IMG/VR virus record: IMGVR_UViG_3300014914_000049
Coordinates: 1-20,411 of that record
DNA: 20,411 nt
Direction: 5' to 3' (one strand)
DNA from: a virus
A program made the position numbers and the translations under genes. Below, piece after piece: positions 1,490 to 20,411 of this stretch. Under the pieces are notes generated by a model, which searched no databases, was not told where the DNA came from, and saw only the letters and a program-made list of their open reading frames with translations. The first letter of the stretch is position 1; every line of letters begins with the position of its first letter.

Positions 1490-2218
1490 TTACTTACACA
1501 TTGACTCTAAAAAGGCCATCAATTCCTTTAACTTCACCAACTGGTGAGGGCTTAGCTGTTTATGGAAATCAGTCACAGCCCGCTCTTGAACGACTCGAAA
1601 GCACCAGGAAGTGTCAACCGACCTCACGTTTGGGAAAGCACCATAAACACGAAGTTCATTAGGGTGACCCAAACCTAAGATGTGAACAGGAATTTCAGCT
1701 CCTACCTCCATCAAGTAAGTCAGCGCTCTGTGTCGTCCCGCTACCACGAACGCGGGCATAAGCTGTTTTGGGCGAGCCTCTTTCGGAGTTAAAGCAAGCG
1801 AAGCTGCTTTACCCAAGCCGATCACATCACACCACGGTGCGTCTACAAATACCTTCAGACATTCCATGTACTCTTTAGGGCTGTTCCCTTGAGGAACACA
1901 CATGATCTTCGTGGTAGGAAACTCCGATCTTATAAGAGCGGCGAATTTAGCAGATTCCTCACAAGTCCTTTCAGCGTCATACAAGTAATCAGGTGCGACA
2001 ACCTCATGTGGACGCAACGCTTCCACCTTCGCTTTATCAATCTGAGGCGTTCCTGTCTCAATAACTCCATTATCTAAGACAATGTATGCCCCACTCTCGC
2101 GTTGCCTCTCGTAAAATTCTAAATACTCCCCTTCCAGTAAGTGAGCCAATACGAGATGTTGATTTAAGTGGCTCACTAAGTCTAGATGAGGAATTGGTGC
2201 GTTGATCATTAACTTCAC
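1490..2218 (-). CDS. TGT-fold transglycosylase, DpdA-like (candidate 7-deazaguanine DNA transglycosylase)
   Basis: The 242-residue protein shows the order of tRNA-guanine transglycosylase (TGT) motifs: VLDNG (47-51, like the DSGGF catalytic-acid loop), VVAPD (73-77), VPQG (108-111, like VQGG in base binding), IGLG (133-136), then HILGLGHPNEL (179-189, like the LMGVG-P segment) and RSVDTSW (199-205), where D202 fits the nucleophilic Asp. TGT proteins exchange guanine for a 7-deazaguanine; the short phage members of the DpdA type act on DNA rather than tRNA. The C-terminal tRNA-binding zinc site of bacterial TGT is not seen, which favours the short DNA-type form. FolE2 in the same gene string (9355-10173) could start precursor synthesis. 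A diverged copy is at 17825-18511. The start is GTG at 2218 with GGAGG six bases upstream. The fold assignment is strong; DNA as substrate is inferred. Confidence 0.72.
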   Translation of the reverse strand: MKLMINAPIPHLDLVSHLNQHLVLAHLLEGEYLEFYERQRESGAYIVLDNGVIETGTPQIDKAKVEALRPHEVVAPDYLYDAERTCEESAKFAALIRSEFPTTKIMCVPQGNSPKEYMECLKVFVDAPWCDVIGLGKAASLALTPKEARPKQLMPAFVVAGRHRALTYLMEVGAEIPVHILGLGHPNELRVYGAFPNVRSVDTSWCFRVVQERAVTDFHKQLSPHQLVKLKELMAFLESMCK

Positions 2219-2233
2219 TGTCCACCTCCTATA

Positions 2234-3103
2234 TTACTCTAATCGAACCCCTAAATCCTCTGGGGGTAGAACTTGGTACCCAAACCCTGGTATCACCTTA
2301 AAGTGACGCAAAAGCCTTTTTGCCGTTGACTCTGAAATGTTAAATCTTTGCATCAACTTCTGAGTCGCTTCCTTCGCGCTGCTCGACGTGCACAAACATT
2401 CCAAAACCTGCCGCTTAACTTCGTCCTTACCTAATTTAAGGTAAGCTTTACTTAACCAACTACGACTATAACTACTCCCCGGGAGTTTAATTCCGTACTT
2501 GAACAGCAGTGCCCTCACAGGCTTAACATCAAAACCCAACTTAGCAGCGATTTTTATTTGCGTCCTGTACTTCTCTGCCAAACGGGTAAGAAAGTGACGT
2601 TTACCCTCTTCGGTTGTACATCCTATACTGTCCAGAAATCGTTCGACCATTATACCAGATCGTCTCTTCTCTAACCACTTTAGTTTCGCCAACACACTCC
2701 TAACTCGTTCTTCTCTAGTGACACCTCTTACAACATACCTCGCCAACTTCCTAACGGCTTTACTATATGTAGTTTCTTCCCCCTTAAAAGGAGGAACATA
2801 AAAATGGTACACATCTCTCTGAGACTCACGTAATAAATACTTCAAGGCACGAACTAGAGGGGCTGGTGCGTACATAAGGTTATCAGAAAACCACCTATCA
2901 CAAACAAACGACGACTCTGAAAGCCATAGCAGAATATAGTTAGCCATACAGTAACAAGTTTTCAACTCTTCAGAAAGACCATCAACCTCACCTACATCCA
3001 CAACAACGGTCGAAATCCCCAGTGCCTTAGCTACATCCTTTGCTAAAGTAGTCTTACCGACACCCCTATCACCTGTAAACGCGATTTTCAGAATTCCAGA
3101 CAT
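2234..3103 (-). CDS. P-loop kinase-like NTPase with two predicted HTH segments
   Basis: The 289-residue protein opens with a Walker A loop, GDRGVGKT (11-18), followed by helix residues typical of nucleotide and nucleoside kinases. DRWFSDNLMY (69-78) matches the DR-x3-DN-x2-Y segment of NadR-like and AAA_28 ATPases. From about residue 150 the sequence changes character: residues 178-206 (KYRTQIKIAAKLGF then VRALLFKYGI) look like a helix-turn-helix, and residues 242-270 (KEATQKLMQRFNIS then AKRLLRHF) like a second. A nucleotide-kinase-type core fused to DNA-binding segments is unusual; it could be a regulated NTPase, a DNA-modification kinase or a nucleotide kinase. The ATG directly follows the TAG of the membrane protein, with only a weak ribosome binding site, so translational coupling is likely. 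Confidence 0.72.
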   Translation of the reverse strand: MSGILKIAFTGDRGVGKTTLAKDVAKALGISTVVVDVGEVDGLSEELKTCYCMANYILLWLSESSFVCDRWFSDNLMYAPAPLVRALKYLLRESQRDVYHFYVPPFKGEETTYSKAVRKLARYVVRGVTREERVRSVLAKLKWLEKRRSGIMVERFLDSIGCTTEEGKRHFLTRLAEKYRTQIKIAAKLGFDVKPVRALLFKYGIKLPGSSYSRSWLSKAYLKLGKDEVKRQVLECLCTSSSAKEATQKLMQRFNISESTAKRLLRHFKVIPGFGYQVLPPEDLGVRLE

Positions 3104-3316
3104 CTATTCATCCCGAGTCAATAGTCGTTGCATTATAAAATCTAAGAAAATAAGGAGCACTGTTATCGCTACGAAACTGTAAACCAAGGTTCCGCTCGAG
3201 AGTCCAACATACATAAGCAAAGCATGAACGCCCTCCACAACAACACAAATCCCTGTCAAGATCCATACTAAAACCAACAAACCCACCACTACATCAATAA
3301 CAACATTATCCTTCAT
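3104..3316 (-). CDS. Small two-helix membrane protein
   Basis: The 70-residue product is mostly hydrophobic, with two likely membrane segments (about residues 7-28 and 43-64), a short charged N-terminus and a C-terminus ending QRLLTRDE. No family is recognised. The ATG is preceded by GGAGG seven bases upstream and overlaps the upstream stop as ATGA, while its own stop touches the next start. Being inside a replication gene string, it might anchor a replication or exclusion function at the membrane, but that is a guess. Confidence 0.68.
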   Translation of the reverse strand: MKDNVVIDVVVGLLVLVWILTGICVVVEGVHALLMYVGLSSGTLVYSFVAITVLLIFLDFIMQRLLTRDE

Positions 3317-3738
3317 TTTTGTACCTCCATTAAACGCGAAAGTACTCTATCAAAATCACACATGAAAAAACCATCTGTATACATAAATGGCTGCACCCGA
3401 AAAGGCAAATCCTTCACAGCTGTTAAGAAGTAAGTAGCCACACCTTCCTTCTGTACCACAAGGCTTACTGGTTGGGTGATGCTTAGCGCGTCTCGTACTG
3501 CTTTCTGTAAATCCCCATAAAGACCCACCTTCATTAATCTCACTATAGAAAAGTCAACGCATACACAGTACAACCAACCTTGCAGAGCACAACTAAAGTG
3601 TCTAACCTGTCCAAGCAACCTCGCACGCAGTGTCGCTTCAATCTCGGAACATAAAAACGGGTGGAACTTATTGAGCACCTTCTTCTCGAGGTACCTCTGG
3701 CGTCTCTCCGCTTTCGTCTGAGGGAACGTCGCTAACAT
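3313..3738 (-). CDS. Unrecognised protein overlapping the recA 3' end
   Basis: The 141-residue frame starts at ATG 3738 inside the last 71 bases of the recombinase gene, with a strong GGAGG seven to eight bases upstream that lies wholly within recA. The N-terminus is basic (KAERRQRYLEKK), and the middle has hydrophobic Cys-rich strands (WLYCVCVDF). It ends by ATGA overlap with the membrane-protein gene. I recognise no domain. The ribosome binding site and coupled stop support a real gene. Position after recA suggests a recombination accessory role (for example a mediator), but no sequence feature shows it. Confidence 0.7.
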   Translation of the reverse strand: MLATFPQTKAERRQRYLEKKVLNKFHPFLCSEIEATLRARLLGQVRHFSCALQGWLYCVCVDFSIVRLMKVGLYGDLQKAVRDALSITQPVSLVVQKEGVATYFLTAVKDLPFRVQPFMYTDGFFMCDFDRVLSRLMEVQK

Positions 3739-4744
3739 ATTTACCTCCCTCTTTCCTCATTTGCCTAATCTGCGTTACTGCTGGGGCAAGATCGCCATAA
3801 AACGCAGACACAACAGATTTCTCAATCGCCTCAGAGATCTCAGGAGGTGCGGCGCCTTGAAACTTCTGACCCTCAAACTCACACCAACCTCCTCCTAACT
3901 TTTTCACAAAACCCCATTGTGACGCGAGGCTCAAAATCGCTCTTGAGTCATCAAAACCCGAGTCGAAGTAATAATCCACAGATGACCGTAGATATGGTCG
4001 ACGTAACTTATTCTTTACACAGAGTACCTCAAGGCGTATCCCTATTACTTCATCCTCTTTAGCCTTGATCAACTGAGTCCTCTTCAATAGAATCTGAACT
4101 GCGCTGTGGAAGTCGAACGTATGACCACCGATCTTAGTATATCCTACAGAACCAAACGTCCCTATCTTCTCCTTCATTTGATTTGTCGCGACAAACAAGG
4201 CGTTCAACCTTGCTATGTGAGTCGTAAGCTGTCTAAACATACGTGAAAGCGTTCGTGCGTGAAGTCCTAACGACTTCCCTGACGAATCACTATCAACCTC
4301 CTCAAGCACAGGAGTTGCTGCAACTGAGTCTAGTGCAAGCACTACCGGAGACACGTCCTTCAACTCATTACATAAGAACAGAAACTGTTCACCGACTAAC
4401 TGTAAGTTGTCAGGATTGAGTAGTAGTAAATCTCTAGGAATTACCCCAAACAATCGAGCCCAATCTTCTGTATACGAAAACTCAGAATCACACAAAGCCG
4501 CGAAACCATTGAACTGGTGGCAGGCTCCGATAATTGCAGCAATAACTGCTGACTTCCCAACTGATTCAAACCCATAGATCTCAACGACCCTACCAAGTGG
4601 AAAGCCTGGCATGCCCAAAACAAAGTCGATCGGCAGTACACATGAAGGTAAATAACCACGCGCTTCCTGTTTAACCCCCTCCAATGCGCCCAGCGATCCA
4701 AATCGTCGTTCCATCTTCTTTACAACTGTGTCTAGACTACTCAT
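3668..4744 (-). CDS. recA: RecA/UvsX-family recombinase
   Basis: The 358-residue protein has the RecA core: Walker A GFESVGKS (58-65), LCDSEFSYTEDWARLFG (84-100, matching the catalytic-Glu segment), Walker B VVLALDS (134-140), an L2-like ATNQMKEKIGTFG run (186-198) and VKNKLRRPY (243-251, as VKNK in RecA). The C-terminus is acidic (DESGETPEVPREE), as in bacterial RecA. It should form ATP-dependent filaments on ssDNA and pair homologous strands, working with the SSB just upstream, the SbcCD-like pair and the UvsW-like helicase in recombination-driven replication. The ATG overlaps the SSB stop as TAATG; the ribosome binding site is weak, so coupling to SSB translation is likely. The last 71 bases also encode the start of the next gene. 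Confidence 0.95.
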   Translation of the reverse strand: MSSLDTVVKKMERRFGSLGALEGVKQEARGYLPSCVLPIDFVLGMPGFPLGRVVEIYGFESVGKSAVIAAIIGACHQFNGFAALCDSEFSYTEDWARLFGVIPRDLLLLNPDNLQLVGEQFLFLCNELKDVSPVVLALDSVAATPVLEEVDSDSSGKSLGLHARTLSRMFRQLTTHIARLNALFVATNQMKEKIGTFGSVGYTKIGGHTFDFHSAVQILLKRTQLIKAKEDEVIGIRLEVLCVKNKLRRPYLRSSVDYYFDSGFDDSRAILSLASQWGFVKKLGGGWCEFEGQKFQGAAPPEISEAIEKSVVSAFYGDLAPAVTQIRQMRKEGGKYVSDVPSDESGETPEVPREEGAQ

Positions 4745-5595
4745 TACTTCTGCCCCATCAACCTATTTAATGCGTCCTTCACCTTCTGGGGGTCAAACCC
4801 AGTCTGTGGTGTTTGAGGCTGTGCCGGCTGTTGTGGTACTGGCGTTGACGGCGCTTGGGGCTGTGTTGGTTGCTGAGGTACTGGTGTCGGCTGTTGTGGT
4901 ACTGGCGTTGACGGCGCTTGGGGCTGTGTTGGTTGCTGAGGTACTGGTGTTGGCTGTTGTGGTACTGGTGCTGATGCTGATTGTGAACCAAGCGGTGCAA
5001 CAGCCACGTCTATACTCTCATCTTGCAGCAAACTGATAATGTACTCGGGTGTCGCCTTAGTATAAATCTTATCTAAATCATGCATTTTAGTCAACAATTG
5101 AGGATCAACCTCGGTTTGCTGTGGATCGGGGATAATCTGATACTTTGTCGATTTAACCCCTGAACCTTCACGCACTACAGTTACGTTCCTTCCTGTTTTT
5201 GAATCTGTCAGATCACCCCACTGCGGATCAATACAGAACTGCGCGAATTGGTTCCATATTATCGGGGGCATTGCCCAAACATGTACACCACTATTTTTGT
5301 CCTCCAAGTCAACCATATTAACGAGGAACCTGTTTATCGTGTTGATTTTCCCTTCGAGCGAGGGAGCTAAAACAGGATCTTGAAGCATCGAGCAAACAAT
5401 GCAGTTCCCTGGTGTACACAACACACTTCGTGATCCAACCCAATGCAACCTAACAGGCTTGTAAAACAAATGGGTGTCGGGCTTCCATGGGGGAAGAATC
5501 CTGATGTAATTCCGACCCACTTTTGGCTTCCAGAAGGAACCAACTGTAGATGAATACTGACCTAAGTCCTTCTTGAGTTGTTCGATGTCTAACAT
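4744..5595 (-). CDS. gp32-like single-stranded DNA-binding protein with Pro/Gln repeat tail
   Basis: The 283-residue protein matches phage gp32-type SSBs. FWKPKVGRNYIRILPPW (21-37) is the usual first strand, H51-C60-C65-C68 forms a plausible zinc site (gp32 uses His and three Cys), and GDLTDSKTGR (127-136) is the conserved turn before the last OB strands. From about residue 207 a linker of VPQQPT and QPQAPST repeats runs to about 260, then FDPQKVKDALNRLMG closes the protein. gp32 normally ends in an acidic tail that binds partners; here the end is not acidic. The start is ATG 5595, with GGAGG six bases upstream and just after the polymerase stop; upstream in-frame codons lie inside the polymerase gene. 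It should coat ssDNA for the polymerase and RecA. Confidence 0.87.
   Translation of the reverse strand: MLDIEQLKKDLGQYSSTVGSFWKPKVGRNYIRILPPWKPDTHLFYKPVRLHWVGSRSVLCTPGNCIVCSMLQDPVLAPSLEGKINTINRFLVNMVDLEDKNSGVHVWAMPPIIWNQFAQFCIDPQWGDLTDSKTGRNVTVVREGSGVKSTKYQIIPDPQQTEVDPQLLTKMHDLDKIYTKATPEYIISLLQDESIDVAVAPLGSQSASAPVPQQPTPVPQQPTQPQAPSTPVPQQPTPVPQQPTQPQAPSTPVPQQPAQPQTPQTGFDPQKVKDALNRLMGQK
4825..4968. repeat. 63-bp tandem repeat in the SSB gene (2.3 copies)
   Basis: Bases 4825-4887 and 4888-4950 are identical over all 63 positions, and a third partial copy starts at 4951 with a single change before diverging near 4968. The period is 21 codons, so the frame is kept and each unit adds one TPVPQQPTPVPQQPTQPQAPS-type module to the SSB linker. 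Identity at synonymous positions points to a recent duplication. Confidence 0.95.
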
Positions 5596-5605
5596 ACCAT
5601 ACCTC

Positions 5606-8020
5606 CTAATAAAATAGTTCTTCGCCCCCCTCCCATCTATCAGAGACCTTAATATCAACAGGGATAACGAGGGACGTATTCGGAATTGGACGTTCCATAA
5701 CGTCCTTTATTATCTCTCCAACCTCTTCAACACAATCCTCAGGCGACTTAACTCCTATTGCGTCATGCAGTTGTAAAATCACAACAGCGCCGGATCCCTT
5801 TGACTTCAACAGCTCGACCAACATCGAAAGAGATTGATTAGTATGATCCGCGATAGTACTTTGCGGCACGAAACTAAGTGCCTGTCTCTCCCATTCTGAC
5901 AGGAAGGGGCCTGGAGGGAAAATCCTAGTCCTACCGTACAAGTTACGTAATACTCTTTTCGATCTAGCTTCTTCCACTACATAATCCATGAAAGACTTAA
6001 TCTCGGGGAACTCCGTAAAAAATTGGTTCATGATCGCCTCAGCCTCTTTGAGTGGAATCCGAAACTGATCGGCGACGCTGTGCGCCTGACGACCGTACAT
6101 CAACCCATATACAACAAATTTAGCCATCTTCCTCTCAATATCATCCTTATGAATCTTCTTTTTAAATATGCGCTCCGCAACGACTGTGTGAATATCACGC
6201 CCAGTGCTAAACGCTTCCATCATTGTTGCACACTGTGCAACATATGCCATTACTCGTGCTTCAGCCTGTGAATAGTCCGCCTCAATAAACTTATAACCTG
6301 GTGGGACATTAAAAATAGATCGTAGTGCCGATTTCGGTATGGTCTGAATTGGAGGTGATGTACAAGAGAGACGCCCACTTACGGTACCAGTTACGTGATA
6401 ATCAGGATGGACTTTCCCATCTTTTGCCACAAACCTCCAGATTCCACCTCTCCCTCCCGCCAAGTATGTAGACAGTACCTTTTGACGCTTCCGCAACTTA
6501 ATTAGTGAGTCAACTACGGATAAAGCCCTCGTGTCTTGTTTCTGCTTAGCCCATGCGAGTAACTTTTGCAGCGCTTCGGCACATGTTGACGCCTTCTCTC
6601 CTTTTGTCTTTACAAGCACAGGAAGGCCCAAATCCGAATAAAGAACATTACTCAGCTGTGCTGAAGAGCGTGGATTGAACTTCTTACCAACACTTCTGTA
6701 CAAATCCTCCTCAAGGCTTATTACTTCATCTGCGACTTGTTTAGTCAACTCCTGAACTCGATCCCCATCTACACTCATACCTTCAATTTCGACATGTGTT
6801 AACGCTATTTGAGTAGGAAGCACTACATTCCAATATAAGTAGGAGTACTCTTTTTCAATGCTCGGAATCATCTTCAGCGCGATTAGACGTGTTACAATTG
6901 AGTCATGTGCAGTATATTCATATAGAATCGAGGAAGGAATTTCCGAGTAAGACTTAACTTTATTAGCCTTCTTGTACAACTCTAAGGGCAGATCGTACTT
7001 AGGGTAGTCTAAGTAGATCGATACTAGTGTAACTAAGTCACAAGGTATATTCTCGTTTAATACGTGCTGACCTAACATAGTGTCAAAATATATGTTATTG
7101 ACAGTGAACCCACACTGATATAAAAACTCGAGATCGAACTTGATGTTTTGACCCACTTTTCTACATCTCGAGTTCAGTATTCTTTCAACAAATGGCCTCA
7201 CTACCGGATCATCGAAAGGAATAACAACACCTACATAGTCCTTAAAGGAGATACTCAAACATAAAACTTTATCACTAAAAGGATCCACCCCAGTAGTCTC
7301 GACATCAAAAGCAAGCAACTCATCTTCAGGTAGCTCTTCCACCATGCGCGTGACTTCTTCCAGATCCCATAAAGTGTTCACCACAAAATAAGTCGACCGA
7401 CCTTCTTGGTAATTTCCTGTCAAAACCCTATAGAGTTTCTGAACGTCACACATATATAAAAATTCCCTCTCCCGCTGGCGTAGGATACTCGCTGGGTGCA
7501 TAAGAGGGAAAATGACACATCCATCGGCCGTGTGGAGAACATAACCACGCACTGCCATTATGGAAGTCAAAGGCTCCTTTCGAGCTAACTGAAGTAACTC
7601 ACACCCCTTAAGGTTAAGGATCGACGTTATGTACTCCAAAGCAAGCCCACCTAAAGGAATAATTAAACTAGGGTTGACTTTCTTAATCTCTTTCCGTAAT
7701 CGTGGGATACAAAAGTTATCTCGGATCGACTTAACTGGGTTTTTGGCTGAACAAAGACACGCGTTTGTGATATACAAATACATCTCACGTTTACGTAAGA
7801 AGTCCTCAAAGTCGTGCGCGTCTGGCACTAACCACCCCAGGTATTTAAATAAGAATTCACCACTCGCACCACAAAAGGGGATCCCGCGTAACAGCTCCTC
7901 GGATCCGGGACTTTCTCCCACGACCATAATCACCGCGCGTGGATCTCCATGTGGCGGGACAATTTTGACCTTAGGCTTTATTGGGCATAATCCACACATT
8001 GCATCTCCATATACATCCAT
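5606..8020 (-). CDS. polA: Family A DNA polymerase fused to an N-terminal family-4-like uracil-DNA glycosylase
   Basis: Three domains are visible in 804 residues. Residues 1-200 resemble family 4 UDG: C9, C12, C88 or C90 and C104 as iron-sulfur ligands, GESPGSEE (35-42), GIPFCGASG (46-54) and HPAS (175-178). Residues 230-390 hold a DEDDy 3'-5' exonuclease: DVE (239-241), NIKFD (292-296) and YTAHD (369-373). Residues 410-804 are a polymerase A core: TVSGRLS (546-552), motif A DYSQAEAR (582-589), motif B R630-K634-Y638 and motif C HDA (752-754). There is no 5' nuclease. Motif B has Tyr where E. coli Pol I has Phe762 (as T7 polymerase does), and motif C has Ala after the catalytic Asp where Glu is usual. 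This is presumably the replicative enzyme, with built-in proofreading and uracil recognition, matching the nearby dUTPase. The ATG 8020 follows GGTGGAGGA. Confidence 0.93.
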   Translation of the reverse strand: MDVYGDAMCGLCPIKPKVKIVPPHGDPRAVIMVVGESPGSEELLRGIPFCGASGEFLFKYLGWLVPDAHDFEDFLRKREMYLYITNACLCSAKNPVKSIRDNFCIPRLRKEIKKVNPSLIIPLGGLALEYITSILNLKGCELLQLARKEPLTSIMAVRGYVLHTADGCVIFPLMHPASILRQREREFLYMCDVQKLYRVLTGNYQEGRSTYFVVNTLWDLEEVTRMVEELPEDELLAFDVETTGVDPFSDKVLCLSISFKDYVGVVIPFDDPVVRPFVERILNSRCRKVGQNIKFDLEFLYQCGFTVNNIYFDTMLGQHVLNENIPCDLVTLVSIYLDYPKYDLPLELYKKANKVKSYSEIPSSILYEYTAHDSIVTRLIALKMIPSIEKEYSYLYWNVVLPTQIALTHVEIEGMSVDGDRVQELTKQVADEVISLEEDLYRSVGKKFNPRSSAQLSNVLYSDLGLPVLVKTKGEKASTCAEALQKLLAWAKQKQDTRALSVVDSLIKLRKRQKVLSTYLAGGRGGIWRFVAKDGKVHPDYHVTGTVSGRLSCTSPPIQTIPKSALRSIFNVPPGYKFIEADYSQAEARVMAYVAQCATMMEAFSTGRDIHTVVAERIFKKKIHKDDIERKMAKFVVYGLMYGRQAHSVADQFRIPLKEAEAIMNQFFTEFPEIKSFMDYVVEEARSKRVLRNLYGRTRIFPPGPFLSEWERQALSFVPQSTIADHTNQSLSMLVELLKSKGSGAVVILQLHDAIGVKSPEDCVEEVGEIIKDVMERPIPNTSLVIPVDIKVSDRWEGGEELFY

Positions 8021-8025
8021 TCTTA

Positions 8026-8080
8026 TCCTCCACCTTTCAGTATTCTATTACTTATGTGTTCTTCATACACGTGTGGAGGA
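8026..8080 (-). promoter_or_regulatory. Inverted repeat that could mask the polymerase ribosome binding site
   Basis: In the 61-base leader before the polymerase gene, the transcript carries TCCTCCAC (8080-8073) and, about 39 bases later, its exact complement GTGGAGGA (8033-8026). The second arm is the polymerase Shine-Dalgarno. An eight-pair GC-rich stem, extendable by one G-U pair, would hide it. Similar matches to the anti-Shine-Dalgarno core can arise by chance, so the regulatory role is inferred. Confidence 0.35.
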
Positions 8081-8081
8081 C

Positions 8082-8636
8082 TTAGGAAGAACCCGGCTCA
8101 ACCTTAATCCAAAACGCTTGCTTCGTGTGGTACTTATTACACTCTTTCATAAAAATTGGGGTTAAACCTTCAATATCAACTCTGATATCCCCCGCTACTA
8201 TCTCTTCCATCCAATCATGCACCCCAATTATATCATTAGGCTTCAGGAAACGCGCATAAATATTGAACTCATTGATCTTATTACCATTATCACAGTAAAC
8301 AAAGACCCTATCAGGCGATTCGATTAGCTTACGTATCTCATCTATAGTTTTAGGCTCAAAAACGTCAGCCTTTCGAAAATCAACTCCAAACTTCTGAAAA
8401 AGAACCTTACCTCTACCAATCTCCAAATAGGCTGGCGTCTTATCATAAGTGATAAACTCACTGTCATATGCTTTAGCCAGGAAATGCATAAAAAGGCTCG
8501 CACCACCCCACCCCGTCCCCAACTCTATGACTCTTCTTGGTGCGTAAGTCTTAAATATCAACTCAAAAAGATACAAAGCCGACCAACTCTGATAGACTTT
8601 GATCCCACAAAAAGAGGATGGTATCTCAAAACACAT
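8082..8636 (-). CDS. Class I SAM methyltransferase-fold protein, CmcI/cephalosporin hydroxylase-like
   Basis: The 184-residue protein is a Rossmann methyltransferase fold: VIELGTGWGGAS (36-47) is motif I for SAM binding, ITYDKTP (62-68) fits the acidic end of strand two, KADVFEP (89-95) motif III, and VFVYCDNGNK (111-120) plus IIGVHDW (136-142) match the DG-x-K and HD segments of CmcI/cephalosporin-hydroxylase-like and small-molecule O-methyltransferases. In these families the Asp and His bind a metal and the substrate. No DNA-methylase catalytic motif (DPPY or PCQ) is seen, so a base methylase is unlikely. Lying between the polymerase and nucleotide genes, it might act on a nucleotide, a modified base or a cell-envelope sugar. 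The start ATG 8636 follows AGGGG. The fold is firm; the substrate is unknown. Confidence 0.75.
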   Translation of the reverse strand: MCFEIPSSFCGIKVYQSWSALYLFELIFKTYAPRRVIELGTGWGGASLFMHFLAKAYDSEFITYDKTPAYLEIGRGKVLFQKFGVDFRKADVFEPKTIDEIRKLIESPDRVFVYCDNGNKINEFNIYARFLKPNDIIGVHDWMEEIVAGDIRVDIEGLTPIFMKECNKYHTKQAFWIKVEPGSS

Positions 8637-8668
8637 TATCGACCCCTATTAGTACAACAATTCTATTC

Positions 8669-8682
8669 GTAGCTTACGCTAC
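8669..8682 (-). other. Small GUAA-loop hairpin between genes
   Basis: The minus strand reads GTAGC, GTAA, GTAGC's complement GCTAC: a five-pair stem with a GNRA tetraloop, located just after the stop of the Gly/Arg-rich gene. No T-run follows on the minus strand, so it is not a clear terminator for these genes; on the plus strand a T-rich stretch does follow. It may be an RNA-end or processing structure, or chance. Confidence 0.3.
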
Positions 8683-8683
8683 T

Positions 8684-8851
8684 TTACTTTTTACGGCCGC
8701 CTAAATGACGCCCCCTACCTTTACCAAAGCCAGGACCACCTTTAGAGCAAGGGCCTGTATTACGTCCACCTCTACGACCCCCTAGCATGCCAACTCCATG
8801 CCCACGGCCATCATGTGGACGCAACTGTCCTCTTGGATTCCTCTCCGACAT
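8684..8851 (-). CDS. Gly/Arg-rich 55-residue basic protein
   Basis: The product starts MSERNPRG at ATG 8851, preceded by GGAGGAGGAA, the best ribosome binding site available; upstream in-frame codons would lie within the dUTPase gene. It is built from Gly, Arg, Lys and His (RRGGRNTGP, GKGRGRHLGGRKK), has one Cys and almost no hydrophobic residues, and is therefore probably disordered and nucleic-acid binding. RGG-like composition is seen in RNA or ssDNA binders and in small phage proteins of unknown role. A compositional similarity to glycine-rich DUF5320-type proteins is possible but weak. No catalytic features. Confidence 0.7.
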   Translation of the reverse strand: MSERNPRGQLRPHDGRGHGVGMLGGRRGGRNTGPCSKGGPGFGKGRGRHLGGRKK

Positions 8852-8867
8852 TTCCTCCTCCTTCTTT

Positions 8868-9353
8868 TTATTTGCCTGTACTTCCTGCGCCGCCTCCTCT
8901 GTCGTAAAGATAATCTGGTAACTTAGTAACATTCAAGGTCCCTCCATAGAAGAGAGGAACAAAAAGGACCTGCAACACCCTCTCCCCACTAGAAATATGT
9001 ATGACATCAGAGTAACAGTTGGTAGCAAATGGAGTCCAGGGGAGAAGATAACCAGGATCAAAGATTGACATCGCAACTAAGCCCTTTCTTCTCCACGAAG
9101 ACCGAGGCACTACCAGACCACAAACTCCTTGTGGGACTACGATTCTACACGCACAATCAAGCTTAACGGTTTCACCAGGCTGGATGATGTAAGTTTTGAT
9201 GTAAGTTTTATCTTCTTCACTAGAGTAATCAGTCGGATCAGGATGATTAGCGGGAAGAACTCTGAAGACGCGTAGGTCGAAACCAGCGTCGTGAACATTT
9301 CCTTTTCTAGGGTAAAACCCTTTAACCAATTCCTGAAAATAGATTTCTTGCAT
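8868..9353 (-). CDS. dut: Deoxyuridine triphosphate nucleotidohydrolase (dUTPase)
   Basis: The five motifs of trimeric dUTPases are present in 161 residues: DAGFDL (22-27), PRSSWRRKGL (83-92), a degraded third motif FDPGY (98-102), GERVLQ (123-128) and the C-terminal RGGGAGSTG (152-160). The enzyme splits dUTP to dUMP and pyrophosphate, keeping uracil out of DNA, which fits the UDG domain on the polymerase. The PRSS and FDPGY segments also recall dCTP deaminase, but DAGFDL and GSTG favour dUTPase, and the deaminase catalytic Glu is not seen. An acidic insertion lies at about 36-55. The start is ATG 9353, with GGAGG six bases upstream, overlapping only the end of the FolE2 gene region; upstream in-frame codons lie inside FolE2. 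Confidence 0.87.
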   Translation of the reverse strand: MQEIYFQELVKGFYPRKGNVHDAGFDLRVFRVLPANHPDPTDYSSEEDKTYIKTYIIQPGETVKLDCACRIVVPQGVCGLVVPRSSWRRKGLVAMSIFDPGYLLPWTPFATNCYSDVIHISSGERVLQVLFVPLFYGGTLNVTKLPDYLYDRGGGAGSTGK

Positions 9354-9354
9354 C

Positions 9355-10173
9355 TTATACCTCCTGAAGGAACCACCAAGCATTGACCCGATCCGAACAA
9401 TCGAACGCAACCGCTTGGTGGACATGAATACTTTCTTGGTGTTCAACTTTCACCCAAAACCCATCACTAACGGGGTTCTTCAAGAGTCGATCGCTTATAG
9501 CTCTAACCATATCCTCTACGAACTTCGGGTTCTCGTAAGCCTCAACTGTTACATGCTTCTCATCTGGTCTCTTCAAAAGCTCGAACACAGGAGCGCTAGC
9601 ACACTCCTCTACCAAATTGACAATATGCTCAAACAATACAGTACCTTTGGGGTTGATTAAGGCAACGGACGCAAAAGACCTCTGGTTATGAGCACCTTTT
9701 CCGTCTGCTATTTCCTTCGAACACGGGCAACAAGAAGTGTAAGGTACTTTTACAATCATAAGTAGCGAAGTACATGAAGACTCACAAATACCTACGACAG
9801 AAGTGGTAATGGGCAGAAACTGTTTTATCATACTCCGTGGGGATGTTTTTTCGACGAAGTAATCAAGTGTCACCTTCACAAAGCCATCCGCACTACCTAA
9901 CCTCTCCTTCAGAAAATCCAAAGACTTTACTACGTTATCCACGAGCAGACATTGTTTCTCAAAGCACTTATAGACGACCTCAACAGTACGTGACATATTA
10001 ATCCCACGCACCTCTGGAGTTAGCGAACAATACACTGACAGTGTAGCAGGGGTCCGAACATAACCCAACGAAGGGTAAAATACGTAAACAGGATGCTTCA
10101 CCCCTTCAACTCCAACCCATGGAACCCGGCGTTTTACCTGGCTCGAAGTATTCTGAACATCAGGTAACGTCAT
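9355..10173 (-). CDS. folE2: GTP cyclohydrolase, FolE2 type
   Basis: The 272-residue protein follows the FolE2/COG1469 plan: N-terminal PDVQN (4-8) and VGVEGVKHP (20-28), RGINMSRTVE (56-65, like HMSRF), the active-site run YTSCCPCSKEIADGKGAHNQRS (Cys near 148-151 and His162), and SAPVFELLKRPDEK (193-206), which carries a conserved Glu. FolE2 opens GTP to 7,8-dihydroneopterin triphosphate, first step of folate and of queuosine/7-deazaguanine synthesis. In a phage with TGT/DpdA-like proteins the latter is the attractive role; QueD, QueE and QueC are not in the window. The ATG 10173 follows GGAGG by six bases and overlaps the primase stop (ATGA). Family assignment is strong; pathway use is inferred. 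Confidence 0.92.
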   Translation of the reverse strand: MTLPDVQNTSSQVKRRVPWVGVEGVKHPVYVFYPSLGYVRTPATLSVYCSLTPEVRGINMSRTVEVVYKCFEKQCLLVDNVVKSLDFLKERLGSADGFVKVTLDYFVEKTSPRSMIKQFLPITTSVVGICESSCTSLLMIVKVPYTSCCPCSKEIADGKGAHNQRSFASVALINPKGTVLFEHIVNLVEECASAPVFELLKRPDEKHVTVEAYENPKFVEDMVRAISDRLLKNPVSDGFWVKVEHQESIHVHQAVAFDCSDRVNAWWFLQEV

Positions 10174-10985
10174 ACTTCACCTCCTTTTTCCAAAATCTCA
10201 CCTAAAGTAAAAAAATCACCCGTACTAACACGAACACACGTCACCCTCAACAAATCCATTGTCTTAAAGTCGCTTGGTGACCCTTCAATCATAAACCCGG
10301 CGTACGAATTAGGCACTCCTAGTTTGTATAACTTAACCGCATCTGACAAACCATCAAAGTGTGAATCACTATCCCAAAGAACAACCACACTTTTCACCCC
10401 CATAACTCTCAACATCTGAGGCAACTCTCTATATACACTCTTACCAAAAGTACACACCGCAAAACCCTTCAGAGGCAGATAGTCAAAATAACCCTCAACA
10501 AGAACAGCTACTGGGGAAACCAACTCATCTAAACCAATAGGGAAGTCGCACTTACGAAAACCAGGTGAAGACAAATACTTCGTAGGGCAGTCAAACATTC
10601 TAACTTGATAAGATACACGACCGTCAAACTGAAGCGGTATAACCAAGCCGTAGCCTGTAGACGCGAATGTTAAATATACCTGCTGAAAATAGGAAACCGC
10701 GTTTTTGCGTTGCAGAAACCTAAAGACCTGTGGGTACTTTAGTTCGATCTCGCTAATAGTGTACTTCACAAACCTTCGTGGATCAGTTAAGGCAACTCTA
10801 TCAACATCAACACAATGTTTGTATAGCGTTAGGGGCACATCCCTCAATTGAGCAGCCCTGCCTTTTGCCCCACACCGAAAACAGTGGTAAACTCCTTTCG
10901 ACCAATTAACATACAAATGACCTTTTGTATCCGGGGGCTTCCCTATCAATACACAAAAAGGGCAGTTATATCTAGTTTCACTCAT
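10170..10985 (-). CDS. DnaG-type primase (zinc ribbon plus Toprim)
   Basis: The 271-residue protein has an N-terminal zinc ribbon, C8-x2-C11 and C35-x2-C38 (YNCPFC and HCFRCG), then a connecting region with LVIPLQFDGRVSYQVRM (114-130), and a Toprim core with VLVEGYFD (161-168, Glu164), VVLWDSDSHFD (201-211, Asp205 and Asp207) and GSPSDF (235-240, like the DPSD segment). It should make RNA primers at the fork with the DnaB-type helicase encoded just upstream. It is shorter than bacterial DnaG and lacks a helicase-binding C-terminal domain. I choose ATG 10985, which overlaps the helicase stop by eight bases, because residues before it lie within the helicase gene and precede the zinc ribbon. 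Confidence 0.88.
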   Translation of the reverse strand: MSETRYNCPFCVLIGKPPDTKGHLYVNWSKGVYHCFRCGAKGRAAQLRDVPLTLYKHCVDVDRVALTDPRRFVKYTISEIELKYPQVFRFLQRKNAVSYFQQVYLTFASTGYGLVIPLQFDGRVSYQVRMFDCPTKYLSSPGFRKCDFPIGLDELVSPVAVLVEGYFDYLPLKGFAVCTFGKSVYRELPQMLRVMGVKSVVVLWDSDSHFDGLSDAVKLYKLGVPNSYAGFMIEGSPSDFKTMDLLRVTCVRVSTGDFFTLGEILEKGGEV

Positions 10986-12360
10986 CTTTCCGAAAAGGGA
11001 TAACACCTTGTAAGTCCTTATAAGGGTTAGATAAGGCACCCTCTACGTACCTACGTGACCGTGGTGGAACAAAGAACCTGGAATAAGGATAGTCAATCTC
11101 CACCTTAAGCCCATAAAACGGTGGGCACCGCCGTGAGTAAACCAGAGACACATCCAGGATCGTGCTCGACCTATTACTAGCCGCGTCTCCTTTTGTAACA
11201 TCTGAAAGTACTACAACATGATCCAAACCATACAAAAACGCGTAACTCTGCCCTATGTCCGAACCCTTTAATCTAGCCCCAACTGTTTCCTGAGCCCTGA
11301 TCCCTTCTCGGGATGCACGGGCGACGGTCCAAACAGCAACCTGGTTCTCCTTAGCAAACGAGTGAAGCCACTCAATTATATCAGCACCTACCGAGAACAA
11401 ATGAGATTGGTCTCTCACACGCTCTGAGTGTACTAGGTTCAAGTAGTCCAAGAGAACAACATCTGGTTTAGAGCCCAAAGTTGAACATGCTTGATCGAAC
11501 TTTGACTCAAGAAGTGTTGGAGTCGCTGCGTAAGAGGACACATCAACCTGCAACAGAACCGCTGGTGGTTGTAAGAACGACGAGACGATCGGTTCGATCT
11601 CTCGATACCTCATTCCGTAGTCGCTAACACAAATTGATCTCATCCCAAACTGGTTAGCAAAGGTTAAATCGTACCTGATCCCTATCTCCATTGCAGACAT
11701 CTCAAGAGTAAAATGAAGCACGCGCGCTTGAGCGTTAACAACAGCATAGGAACCCATCCAAATCAGAAAGAACGTCTTCCCTATCTTAGGCGGAGCACAA
11801 ATAGCTCCTACTTCTCCAGGTAAAAGAAAAGTAAACTGACCAAGCGCAAGAGGAGAAGGGACGCCTGCTTTAGTGTAAGCGCGCTTCCAGGCTTCCATAC
11901 GTTCCTGTAAAGCGCTTGTATGATTAACTATTGGTGCGGACTGACGGTCGATATAAGAGATACCTTTAGCTATATCTGATATCTTATCAACATCACCACG
12001 TTTTAGTAATGAGTCAGCTTGTCGGATAAGCCTTGTCACTCTCTTTCTCTTCAGCCATTGAACCACTTTGTCAGCAAGATAGGGCTGGTCCTCGGGGCTG
12101 TAAGATTGTTCCATCCAGCGCTCAAAAAACTGAACTACATAACTAGACTCCACCGATGTCAGTCTACCCCGTAGGTTAGACTTCAACTCGTCTACAAGAA
12201 AGTCAGGTCGTGGTAATGTTTTGTACCTTGTTTCGTACCTCGCAACCAAATCAAACAGTAACTGAATAATCGTGAGGTCAAAATCCTCTTTTTTTGTCTT
12301 CGCTAGTAAGTCCCAATCTAAATACGTAACAAAGTACAATAACACTCCTATGTCATCCAT
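10978..12360 (-). CDS. DnaB-type replicative DNA helicase
   Basis: The 460-residue protein has a helical N-terminal region (1-140) and a RecA-fold ATPase: Walker A APPKIGKT (189-196), HFTLEMS (216-222) with catalytic Glu220, Walker B VVLLDYLNLV (301-310), AVWTVARASREG (342-353) with the sensor segment, and VYSRRCPPFYG (407-417), matching the DnaB arginine-finger region. It should form a hexamer that unwinds DNA ahead of the family A polymerase and recruits the primase made from the next gene. The start is ATG 12360 with GGAGG about ten bases upstream; it overlaps the end of the preceding small gene by 13 bases. Confidence 0.93.
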   Translation of the reverse strand: MDDIGVLLYFVTYLDWDLLAKTKKEDFDLTIIQLLFDLVARYETRYKTLPRPDFLVDELKSNLRGRLTSVESSYVVQFFERWMEQSYSPEDQPYLADKVVQWLKRKRVTRLIRQADSLLKRGDVDKISDIAKGISYIDRQSAPIVNHTSALQERMEAWKRAYTKAGVPSPLALGQFTFLLPGEVGAICAPPKIGKTFFLIWMGSYAVVNAQARVLHFTLEMSAMEIGIRYDLTFANQFGMRSICVSDYGMRYREIEPIVSSFLQPPAVLLQVDVSSYAATPTLLESKFDQACSTLGSKPDVVLLDYLNLVHSERVRDQSHLFSVGADIIEWLHSFAKENQVAVWTVARASREGIRAQETVGARLKGSDIGQSYAFLYGLDHVVVLSDVTKGDAASNRSSTILDVSLVYSRRCPPFYGLKVEIDYPYSRFFVPPRSRRYVEGALSNPYKDLQGVIPFRKDE

Positions 12361-17824: not shown

Positions 17825-18511
17825 TTAAGTGTAAGTCTCCACCAATCGTAGGAGTGTACCTAACACACGCCTCAATTGAACAGGACCCAAATCTGTACCA
17901 ACAAAAGGATATGTTGTGCTAACACTCCTAATATTAAGCGGGCTACGCTTGCTAATCTCCTGGTAGAAAGGTAACTCAACTTCTGGATCCGCTAGACCTA
18001 AAATATGAACCGGCTTCGCTGTCAGGTCCTGAGTTAACATGTACCTCAAAACATGAAGTCGGGATAAAAGCAGCTTCATCTCCTCCTGGACCCTAACATC
18101 CGGCGCATCCCACAATAAACCCATAGCGTCTTTACTCAAACCGATCGCAGTTACAAAACGTGACATATACATTGATTCTAAAAGCCTAAAGAACTCCTCT
18201 TGATTGCGACCTTGAGGAACACCAATAACCCCAATCTTTAATCTTGCAACCTGCTTCATAAACTCAAACTCCGGATCAGGGGGAGAAATGACCTCACTCA
18301 CACGAACTTCGCTCAGAACTTTAGTTACATACGGGGTTAACTCTTTCAGATCTTTCACTATCAGATGATGCCCCTTCTTACCTAGTCGTTTGTAAAACTT
18401 AAAGTACGTTTTCGTAGATTGAAGAAGCTCCATCGAGACCAAATGCCCGAATTGGCCGACTTCCACAACCCAATGCGCGTACTTAAAAGGAACGTCAACA
18501 GCTATCCACAT
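17825..18511 (-). CDS. Degenerate TGT-fold (DpdA-like) paralogue
   Basis: This 228-residue protein is related to the one at 1490-2218. Shared landmarks are VISPPD (74-79, against VVAPD), VPQG (98-101), AIGLSKD (122-128, against IGLGKA), KPVHILGLADPE (166-177, against IPVHILGLGHPN) and IRSVSTTY (194-201, against VRSVDTSW). The candidate nucleophile Asp is thus Ser198, and the VLDNG catalytic-acid loop is replaced by a LIVKDLKEL segment. The fold seems kept but catalysis lost or altered. Eukaryotic TGT pairs a catalytic QTRT1 with a non-catalytic QTRT2; an analogous partner role with the intact copy is a reasonable inference. I choose ATG 18511, nine bases after GGAGG, over GTG 18517. Confidence 0.72.
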   Translation of the reverse strand: MWIAVDVPFKYAHWVVEVGQFGHLVSMELLQSTKTYFKFYKRLGKKGHHLIVKDLKELTPYVTKVLSEVRVSEVISPPDPEFEFMKQVARLKIGVIGVPQGRNQEEFFRLLESMYMSRFVTAIGLSKDAMGLLWDAPDVRVQEEMKLLLSRLHVLRYMLTQDLTAKPVHILGLADPEVELPFYQEISKRSPLNIRSVSTTYPFVGTDLGPVQLRRVLGTLLRLVETYT

Positions 18512-18513
18512 AT

Positions 18514-19233
18514 TCACTTCCCTCCTAACACCTTTCGAGTATAAACATACGACGCACCAACCGCAGCTGCCACATGTGAAATGGGAGCCGCTGGGTGATC
18601 CTTACGATACGCGATAATCCTGTCACGTAGCTTGTCAGGTGCTCTCAAGCCAAGTTTAACCTTCAACGCTTCAACGAGTTCCTTGAACGACCCAACTATA
18701 AAGTAGGAACGCGGATCGACATCCTGGACGGGACATACATTACAAGCACCCCGTCGATCGCACAACAAACACACAACTGCTTCAACCGTGTCAGATAAAA
18801 CTGGACATCTAACACGCCGGTTAACACGATGCCTCACAGTAAAATTAGGTCTACGCTTCACAAACCTAAGCAGAGCACCCCGGTCGAACATTAGCTTAAG
18901 CAGGTGCGTACGTGATGTCTCAAGTGATCTAGCACTCTTTAGTGATCGGGGTGGCCAAGTTATATCGCTCAACGTCCTTCTTACAATATCTAACGTTTGC
19001 TCATCTAGTTTAAGCGAGTTGTACGACAAGTGCCTTAGCGCCGACGCTTCTAGCTGCCTAACACGTTCGCGTGAGACTCCTAAAATCTCAGACAGCTCAT
19101 TGAGAGTATGAGGCCCATCGTTCGCGACTCTGATAGCACAATTCCCATACCTCAAACGTCCAACATACGTCATTCTAGTGAAGTACCGACATTGTGTGTC
19201 ATGACAAACAAATGGCAACTCCCAACATTCCAT
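18514..19233 (-). CDS. Sigma-70 region 4-like protein with Cys cluster and C-terminal HTH
   Basis: Numbered from the GTG at 19236, the 240-residue protein has three parts. Residues 4-33 hold C4, C11, C16 and C33. Residues 43-70 (HTLNELSEILGVSRERVRQLE and on) match sigma-70 region 4.2, which reads the -35 element. Residues 144-168 hold C144-x11-C156-x2-C159-x5-C165 with another Cys at 168. Residues 203-240 form an HTH nearly matching the C-terminus of the protein at 19429-19887. It has no region 2, so it is not a complete sigma factor; it may redirect host RNA polymerase to phage promoters or act as a repressor. I choose ATG 19233 in a TGATG overlap; GTG 19236 is equally possible. Confidence 0.8.
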   Translation of the reverse strand: MECWELPFVCHDTQCRYFTRMTYVGRLRYGNCAIRVANDGPHTLNELSEILGVSRERVRQLEASALRHLSYNSLKLDEQTLDIVRRTLSDITWPPRSLKSARSLETSRTHLLKLMFDRGALLRFVKRRPNFTVRHRVNRRVRCPVLSDTVEAVVCLLCDRRGACNVCPVQDVDPRSYFIVGSFKELVEALKVKLGLRAPDKLRDRIIAYRKDHPAAPISHVAAAVGASYVYTRKVLGGK

Positions 19234-19478
19234 CACAAACGTATTTTACTCCTTATTAGTATCATGTGCCCAATTTTTTGGACCACGCGTTTACGGACTA
19301 GCCTTTCTAACTCACGCATAGGAACGGACCGTGGGATACCCCTCACCCGTTCAGGATCAAAAAACAACTTAGAAGCCGGGCTTAGGTTAGGTGAACCCAG
19401 CAAGAACTCCCTTAACTTCCGACCATCCTTACTTAGAGTTACGTAAAACTTTCCGTGCATACGCTTGAGATACGCCAC
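19233..19478 (-). CDS. Small basic protein between the two HTH genes
   Basis: An 81-residue frame from GTG 19478 (or ATG 19460) to a stop that overlaps the sigma-like gene start. It is rich in Arg and Lys (MRELERLVRKRVVQKIG near 54-70), with FYVTLSKDGRKLREFLLG (11-28) near the front. No domain is recognised and no clear ribosome binding site precedes either start, so it probably depends on translation of the upstream gene, which it overlaps by 32-50 bases. The C-terminal overlap arrangement matches the rest of the gene string. Confidence 0.55.
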   Translation of the reverse strand: MAYLKRMHGKFYVTLSKDGRKLREFLLGSPNLSPASKLFFDPERVRGIPRSVPMRELERLVRKRVVQKIGHMILIRSKIRL

Positions 19479-19887
19479 ATGATTTCGCGATCTCCGACAC
19501 AGTAGCTTTGGGGTGATTTTTCAAATAAGACACTATAACATCTCTCTTACTCCCCTTTGAGACACTGTCCTTGGTTGGCTTGCGATCTCCTGTCGTTTTA
19601 GGTGCTTTTGACCGATGTGTCTTTCGCCTCACTAATTCATCTTTCACCTCACTTTTTACAATCTGAGCCGACACTGACTTGGCTAAGCTCGCTGGGTCAA
19701 CCATAACATCCTCAACCGTAAGGTTCTGAATGTCGTTTGCCCGTGTAACATCACACTGAGAAAATCGAGAACACGCGAAACAAAAGATCAACGCCTGATA
19801 CCTATCCAACGCGGGGCACCAAATTGACTTAGTAAGCCGGTCCCTAAATTCCTCTTTGATGTCTTCATTACTCATAAGTCGAAGCAT
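19429..19887 (-). CDS. Cys-cluster plus HTH DNA-binding protein
   Basis: I choose ATG 19887, eight bases after GGAGG, overlapping the last bases of nrdD; earlier in-frame ATGs overlap more and are badly spaced. The 152-residue product has C24-x11-C36-x2-C39-x5-C45, exactly the spacing of residues 144-165 in the sigma-like protein at 18514-19233. A charged linker (about 80-112: SKAPKTTGDRKPTKD) follows, then an HTH (114-152: KRDVIVSYLKNHP, SEIAKSCGVSQAYARKVL) that aligns without gaps to that protein's C-terminus, sharing roughly half its residues. The two are paralogues; this one lacks the sigma region 4 part. Zinc or an iron-sulfur cluster is the likely ligand of the Cys set. A transcription regulator is the natural guess. 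Confidence 0.78.
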   Translation of the reverse strand: MLRLMSNEDIKEEFRDRLTKSIWCPALDRYQALIFCFACSRFSQCDVTRANDIQNLTVEDVMVDPASLAKSVSAQIVKSEVKDELVRRKTHRSKAPKTTGDRKPTKDSVSKGSKRDVIVSYLKNHPKATVSEIAKSCGVSQAYARKVLRNSK

Positions 19888-20411
19888 AACCATTACCTCC
19901 ATAATACACTTTCCGTGTTGTATACTCACGTAATCTCTCACTACTCCATGCCCGTAATGGTGAGAAGTATCCTACTACTCTGGTCATCCTCTGAACCTGC
20001 GTACTACCACATGTAGGACAAGCGTCAGTACCAACAAACGTGGAACCACACAAGGAACACTGTGAGATAACATAATTAACCGCAAAGTACGTTGTATGCT
20101 TCGCTGCGAATCTAACCACTTTACGCATCTGATGACTATCAAGACGTTCACCTGTGTTTATGTGTAGTATCCCACCCCCTGACAACAACTTATCAAGTCT
20201 ACCTGCTACTTCTATCCGCTCACGAAGCGGAACATCAAGACTAAGAGGTAAGAGTTGATTACTATAACCCTCTACTCCATAAGCGCCGTCAAACAGGTAC
20301 TTATCCATCCCTGCCAAAGTAAACGCCGCTTGTTCAGCAGGGATCATCTCCACATTGTAAAACACACCATCGCGCCGAGAACGGTCCTTAGATATATCAT
20401 TAAGCCGTGTC
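19868..20411 (-). CDS. nrdD: Anaerobic (class III) ribonucleoside-triphosphate reductase, C-terminal part
   Basis: The frame is open from the window edge, so the gene starts outside it; a GTG at 20365 is internal. The visible part matches the NrdD C-terminus: YNVEMIPAEQAAFTLA (the Y-N-x-E-x-x-PAE segment), a SGGGILHIN turn, four zinc Cys in CSLCG and CPTCG, and TRVVGYFSP, which carries the glycyl-radical Gly (Gly132 counted from 20365), followed by the usual SERLREYTTRKVYYG helix. NrdD reduces NTPs to dNTPs using a Gly radical set by the SAM-dependent activase NrdG, and it works only without oxygen. NrdG is not seen here. It feeds the phage polymerase and implies an anaerobic or facultative host. 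Confidence 0.94.
   Translation of the reverse strand, partial: TRLNDISKDRSRRDGVFYNVEMIPAEQAAFTLAGMDKYLFDGAYGVEGYSNQLLPLSLDVPLRERIEVAGRLDKLLSGGGILHINTGERLDSHQMRKVVRFAAKHTTYFAVNYVISQCSLCGSTFVGTDACPTCGSTQVQRMTRVVGYFSPLRAWSSERLREYTTRKVYYGGNGYASTYE

Follow-up and report, generated by a model that had tools for sequence, protein, structure and literature searches.

DpdA exchanges guanine in DNA for 7-deazaguanine, and the locus studied here raises the question of why a virus should hold, in addition to an intact member of the DpdA family, a second copy with degenerate catalytic residues. The window, i.e. the whole stretch of viral DNA that was analysed (IMG/VR record IMGVR_UViG_3300014914_000049; 20,411 nt or 20.4 kb), carries nearly all of its genes on the minus strand (Table 1). 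We refer to the intact DpdA-family protein as INT and to the degenerate DpdA paralogue of the same window as DEG. The open reading frame of DEG, first described at 17825-18511, is real, but it lies on the minus strand and reaches to 18517 instead of 18511; the plus strand at 1490-2218 and 17825-18511 has frames full of stops and no open reading. The start codon of DEG is GTG, and it overlaps the end of the upstream ORF by four bases.

Table 1 Genes and codons of the window that bear on the intact and degenerate DpdA copies.
Feature	Position	Strand	Basis
INT, intact DpdA-family transglycosylase, 242 aa	1490-2218	-	tblastn relatives, model, TGT fold match
Codon of Asp202, predicted INT nucleophile, aligned with Asp of SIDSTTP in DpdA 7ui4	1613-1615	-	alignment
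Codon of Asp49 of LDNG, predicted INT general base	2072-2074	-	alignment
FolE2, GTP cyclohydrolase (type I) catalysing the first step towards 7-deazaguanine	9355-10173	-	Pfam PF02649, E 4.7e-67
DEG, degenerate DpdA paralogue, 230 aa	17825-18517	-	ORF list, BLASTP, profile, model
Codon of DEG Ser200, at invariant nucleophile Asp site (INT D202)	17918-17920	-	alignment
Codon of DEG His171, retained PVHILGL motif	18005-18007	-	alignment
Codon of DEG Asp81, kept counterpart of base-recognising Asp (INT D77)	18275-18277	-	alignment
Codon of DEG Lys55, at invariant general-base Asp site (INT D49)	18353-18355	-	alignment
Gene upstream of DEG in the same run, sigma-70 region 4-like helix-turn-helix	18514-19236	-	sigma-70 region 4 match

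By sequence comparison, DEG is a true paralogue of INT and a homologue of the DpdA family over the whole barrel, as the original prediction had proposed from shared motifs. The BLASTP alignment of the two proteins spans 220 columns with 28% identity (E 4e-13), a profile built exclusively from 31 intact relatives scored DEG at 55.1 bits (best scored shuffle 2.3 bits; reversed sequence -1.0), and hhalign gave 97.6%. In a phylogenetic tree DEG joins INT (support 94/86), a sister placement that carries a long-branch warning. Attraction between these two long branches was rejected as the cause of the clade placement, since DEG stayed inside the phiST-type clade when INT was left out. A duplication inside INT's own clade would have given rise to DEG.

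A tblastn search with INT recovered relatives in 30 phage records, including Cellulophaga phages phi13:1 and phiST, Flavobacterium phage immuto (annotated as DpdA), Campylobacter phage CP20 and its relatives, and further Bacillus BSP7, Aeromonas Ahp1 and Rhizobium phages. Part of this phiST-type family is presumably the published DpdA3 subfamily. Genes for FolE, QueD and QueE adjoin the INT-family gene in most records; QueD was present in 11 of 11 tested records longer than 50 kb, and the four records without it are all fragments of 21 kb or less. The HILG...SVDT stretch of INT corresponds, in a weak match (E 0.14), to HLLG...SIDST of DpdA 7ui4, whose structure is solved. Likeness of the family to the DpdA of Enterobacteria phage 9g is at the level of motifs only, and no profile match was obtained to nt-1 DpdA2, which represents a separate sequence family. 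The CxCxxC zinc motif of TGTs was found in none of 40 family members tested, so that a dimer of the classical TGT kind cannot be assumed.

TGT uses Asp280 as nucleophile and Asp102 as general base, and in human QTRT1 the base is held by Asp159 and Gly229 (PMC6165067). Motif alignment points to D202 (nucleophile), D49 (general base), D77 and G134 as their INT counterparts. Residues were counted in an 88-row alignment with 83 usable intact members, in which D49 (LDNG), D77 and D202 (RSVDTSW) are invariant (83/83). DEG departs from this pattern at both catalytic sites, in agreement with the predicted exchange of the nucleophile for Ser and loss of the LDNG acid: it has Ser200 in place of the nucleophile and Lys55 in place of the general base, the latter followed by Asp56 and a one-residue deletion, while the strand ends agree between the DEG and INT models. 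The other two copies of DEG (L001 and G002) have the same Ser and Lys, and thus hold no Asp at the nucleophile position either. The claim of lost catalytic residues stands for the two acids, but not for the active site as a whole, because the base-recognising D77 is kept as D81, preceded by a one-residue insertion relative to INT. Retained in addition are (INT numbering) P109, Q110, I133, G134, R162, H179, L181 and G182, the VPQG, IGL and HxLG motifs, and altogether 14 of the 23 positions conserved at ≥93%; two loops are absent, one of ~14 residues behind D81 and one of 10 behind the nucleophile site. Lacking both the nucleophile and the general-base Asp that mark an active transglycosylase, DEG is not classed as a DpdA enzyme and is predicted to have lost activity.

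Structure prediction gave a confident TIM barrel for both proteins (DEG: pLDDT 88, pTM 0.86; INT: pLDDT 91). The INT model matches solved tRNA-guanine transglycosylases (Z. mobilis TGT: Z 17, rmsd 3.5 over 221 residues, 12% identity). For DEG the top matches in a viral structure library were phiST DpdA and two more proteins of the family type, followed at lower rank by nt-1 DpdA2 and phage queuine transferases; its PDB match list consists of generic TIM barrels with no TGT chains listed, which says nothing against a TGT fold.

DEG is known from three near-identical copies in one virus lineage: profile and pair searches of viral contigs, a phage collection and 84,980 prokaryote genomes recovered it elsewhere only in two near-identical contigs. 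DEG and INT both lie in the single record of the window, at a distance of 15.6 kb. In sample 3300025163 the relative virus is represented by two contigs, G002 (131 kb), which carries DEG, and G003 (10 kb), which carries INT; the ends of these contigs overlap by 126 bases at 100% and they jointly cover most of the window at 94–97% identity, which places DEG and INT in one genome in the relative too. The degenerate form was thus found only in a lineage that has both the intact copy and FolE2. The expected co-occurrence of the paralogues holds in this direction only, as a second copy was found in none of 20 other INT-bearing records, seven of them complete phage genomes, indicating that a second copy is not a general requirement of the intact enzyme. 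A weak match in Campylobacter phage CP20 (E 0.003) was rejected as a second copy, as it sits in an unrelated-looking protein of 181 aa.

Between the window and either relative, DEG shows 4 non-synonymous against 13 synonymous differences (dN/dS 0.085); in the absence of selection, about 45 of the former would be expected. The dN/dS of INT is 0.041, and neighbouring genes have values similar to that of DEG. The DEG frame is open in all three recovered copies, and this agreement together with the scarcity of non-synonymous changes argues for a maintained pseudoenzyme and not for decay. On these sequence comparisons, DEG is a preserved pseudoenzyme derived from DpdA. As a separate observation, divergence from the relative virus is patchy across window positions 1490-11039 (dS ~0.02–0.05 at 8868-9446 and 0.26–0.43 at 1490-4744), a pattern suggestive of recombination among close viral relatives.

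FolE2 is encoded in the window, and QueD and QueE in the relative contig G002. QueC was not detected in the recovered parts of this virus lineage, whose contigs may be incomplete, and was found in none of 10 relatives of the INT clade, including two complete genomes. From this gene set without detected QueC, the precursor made by the virus is probably 7-carboxy-7-deazaguanine, unless the host supplies QueC or the gene lies outside contigs that may be incomplete. The QueD domain of G002 forms the C-terminal part of a 440-aa ORF (L009:18449-19771, minus strand), in which it is preceded by an N-terminal part of 300 residues. The phage QueE is directly adjoined by a 6-phospho-3-hexuloisomerase, HxlB (L010:1514-2092, minus strand; TIGR03127, above cut-off), for which a search for an HxlA-type partner found none.

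Other features of this lineage were recorded in passing. Contig G002 encodes a TIGR-Tas RNA-guided endonuclease (L009:15944-16846, minus strand; NF052498, E 3.7e-40, 138 bits, cut-off 100) beside a likely TIGR array (L009:15234-15875), in which repeat copies are spaced at 37 nt and related repeats extend across 600 bases. The same contig holds at ~40.7-51 kb (L011) an unusually large local gene family of ~30 tandem paralogous ORFs of ~110 aa each, with a pattern like FLTxxLSRAVPxVxVxSA. By eye, the family A DNA polymerase at window positions 5606-8020 appears fused to an N-terminal uracil-DNA-glycosylase-like domain, the C-terminal part of the ORF at 4744-5658 contains an in-frame Pro/Gln-rich repeat (STPVPQQPTPVPQQPTQPQAP), and the genes at 18514-19236 and 19429-19941 have in common a Cys-rich stretch of similar pattern and alike helix-turn-helix-like C-terminal ends.

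The reading of DEG that we favour, at roughly even confidence, is that of a non-catalytic accessory of DpdA, either a partner subunit or a basic protein that binds DNA or 7-deazaguanine. Dead enzyme copies frequently end up supporting the active one, as QTRT2 does, and it is the frequency of this fate among pseudoenzymes that inclines us towards an accessory role. The virus, with FolE2, QueD and QueE, would make the 7-deazaguanine precursor. After duplication DEG would have lost both exchange acids, the nucleophile Asp being replaced by Ser and the general-base Asp by Lys, with its barrel and the greater part of its base pocket preserved. It may now support the live INT in a non-catalytic way, either as a subunit joined to it or as a basic accessory that binds DNA or the base and positions the substrate. 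A more specific form, which we regard as tentative and somewhat doubtful, is a hetero-oligomeric phage DNA guanine transglycosylase in which a catalytic DpdA is joined by a non-catalytic, base-binding or site-selecting paralogue, as an independent DNA counterpart of QTRT1/QTRT2. Phage DpdA enzymes are not known to depend on a dedicated partner.

The original prediction had gone further, to a structural or sequence-recognition subunit in a QTRT1/QTRT2-like pair. By sequence, the presence of catalytic and non-catalytic TGT-fold paralogues in one genome makes the QTRT1/QTRT2-like reading plausible, and the proposed subunit role agrees with the paralogy, the TIM barrel, the loss of both Asp, the purifying selection and the 7-deazaguanine genes. 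Obligate pairing, however, is not supported, as the 20 other records are single-copy, which weighs against an obligate complex of DEG and INT, the zinc motif is absent and the two genes lie far apart.

Among the alternatives, DEG might work independently of any complex with DpdA and bind, for example, modified DNA or free 7-deazaguanine with a role in regulation or packaging, which we consider unlikely but deserving of attention. Its pocket residues are kept and the protein is basic (predicted pI 9.15, versus 6.21 for INT), and its operon neighbours are the sigma-region-4-like regulator and Mre11/Rad50-like genes, with INT and the Que genes located elsewhere; against this, we know of no regulator with a fold of the TGT/DpdA type.

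It is improbable that DEG is an active enzyme of changed chemistry, its TIM barrel re-used on another base or nucleotide in the manner of ArcS. The strong purifying selection and the new charged residues K55-D56-L-K58 at a barrel strand end would fit such a change, as would the Foldseek placement of DEG near many sugar-phosphate barrels with KGPDC first, but this ranking is generic, since many unrelated barrels score equally, and neither OMP decarboxylase nor any further enzyme family was matched in searches with DEG. An OMP-decarboxylase-like identity, suggested by the D-L-K triplet and the top Foldseek match, was rejected on these grounds. ArcS itself, archaeosine synthase, has a conserved Cys-containing catalytic motif, none of which occurs in DEG; the protein has no cysteine, making this motif impossible and an ArcS identity untenable.

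Continued base exchange through a replacement nucleophile, e.g. Asp56 or Asp81, is very improbable: Asp56 directly follows the position of the lost general base and D81 has been kept, but the nucleophile site itself is Ser with no acid nearby in the sequence (S-V-S-T-T), where 83 of 83 relatives have Asp. Plain decay of a functionless duplicate, as the missing acids and loops might indicate, is nearly excluded by the comparison of gene sequences, given the open frames and a dN/dS like that of neighbouring essential-looking genes.

If the accessory reading is true, DNA modification would be a further setting, besides queuine insertion in eukaryotes, in which an active and an inactive copy can come to be paired, and a partner of the DEG type could explain the site choice or the high guanine replacement by DpdA enzymes.

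Among known systems, ArcS is, like DEG, a TGT-fold paralogue, in this case an archaeal one with a new role in the 7-deazaguanine pathway; it differs from DEG in its Cys-containing motif. The closest system to INT is the DpdA family of phiST/phi13:1, Chryseobacterium phage MA9V-3 and Campylobacter phage CP20, with which it has in common the sequence family, all catalytic residues and the FolE/QueD/QueE setting, whereas DEG is the one member of this family in which two loops and the two catalytic Asp are missing. Vibrio phage nt-1 and Enterobacteria phage 9g likewise have 7-deazaguanine genes and TGT-like transglycosylases acting on DNA (PMC6884629), but these enzymes, DpdA2 and DpdA respectively, belong to different sequence families. 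QTRT2 has lost both catalytic acids (Glu272 and Cys94) and its substrate coordination as well, and has kept the zinc domain (PMC6165067). QTRT1/QTRT2 and INT/DEG are thus alike as pairs of TGT-fold paralogues in one genome, one of them without both catalytic acids; unlike QTRT2, DEG has retained residues of the base pocket and lacks the zinc motif, and the expected substrate of the putative DEG/INT pair, in contrast to that of the QTRT1/QTRT2 heterodimer, would be DNA.
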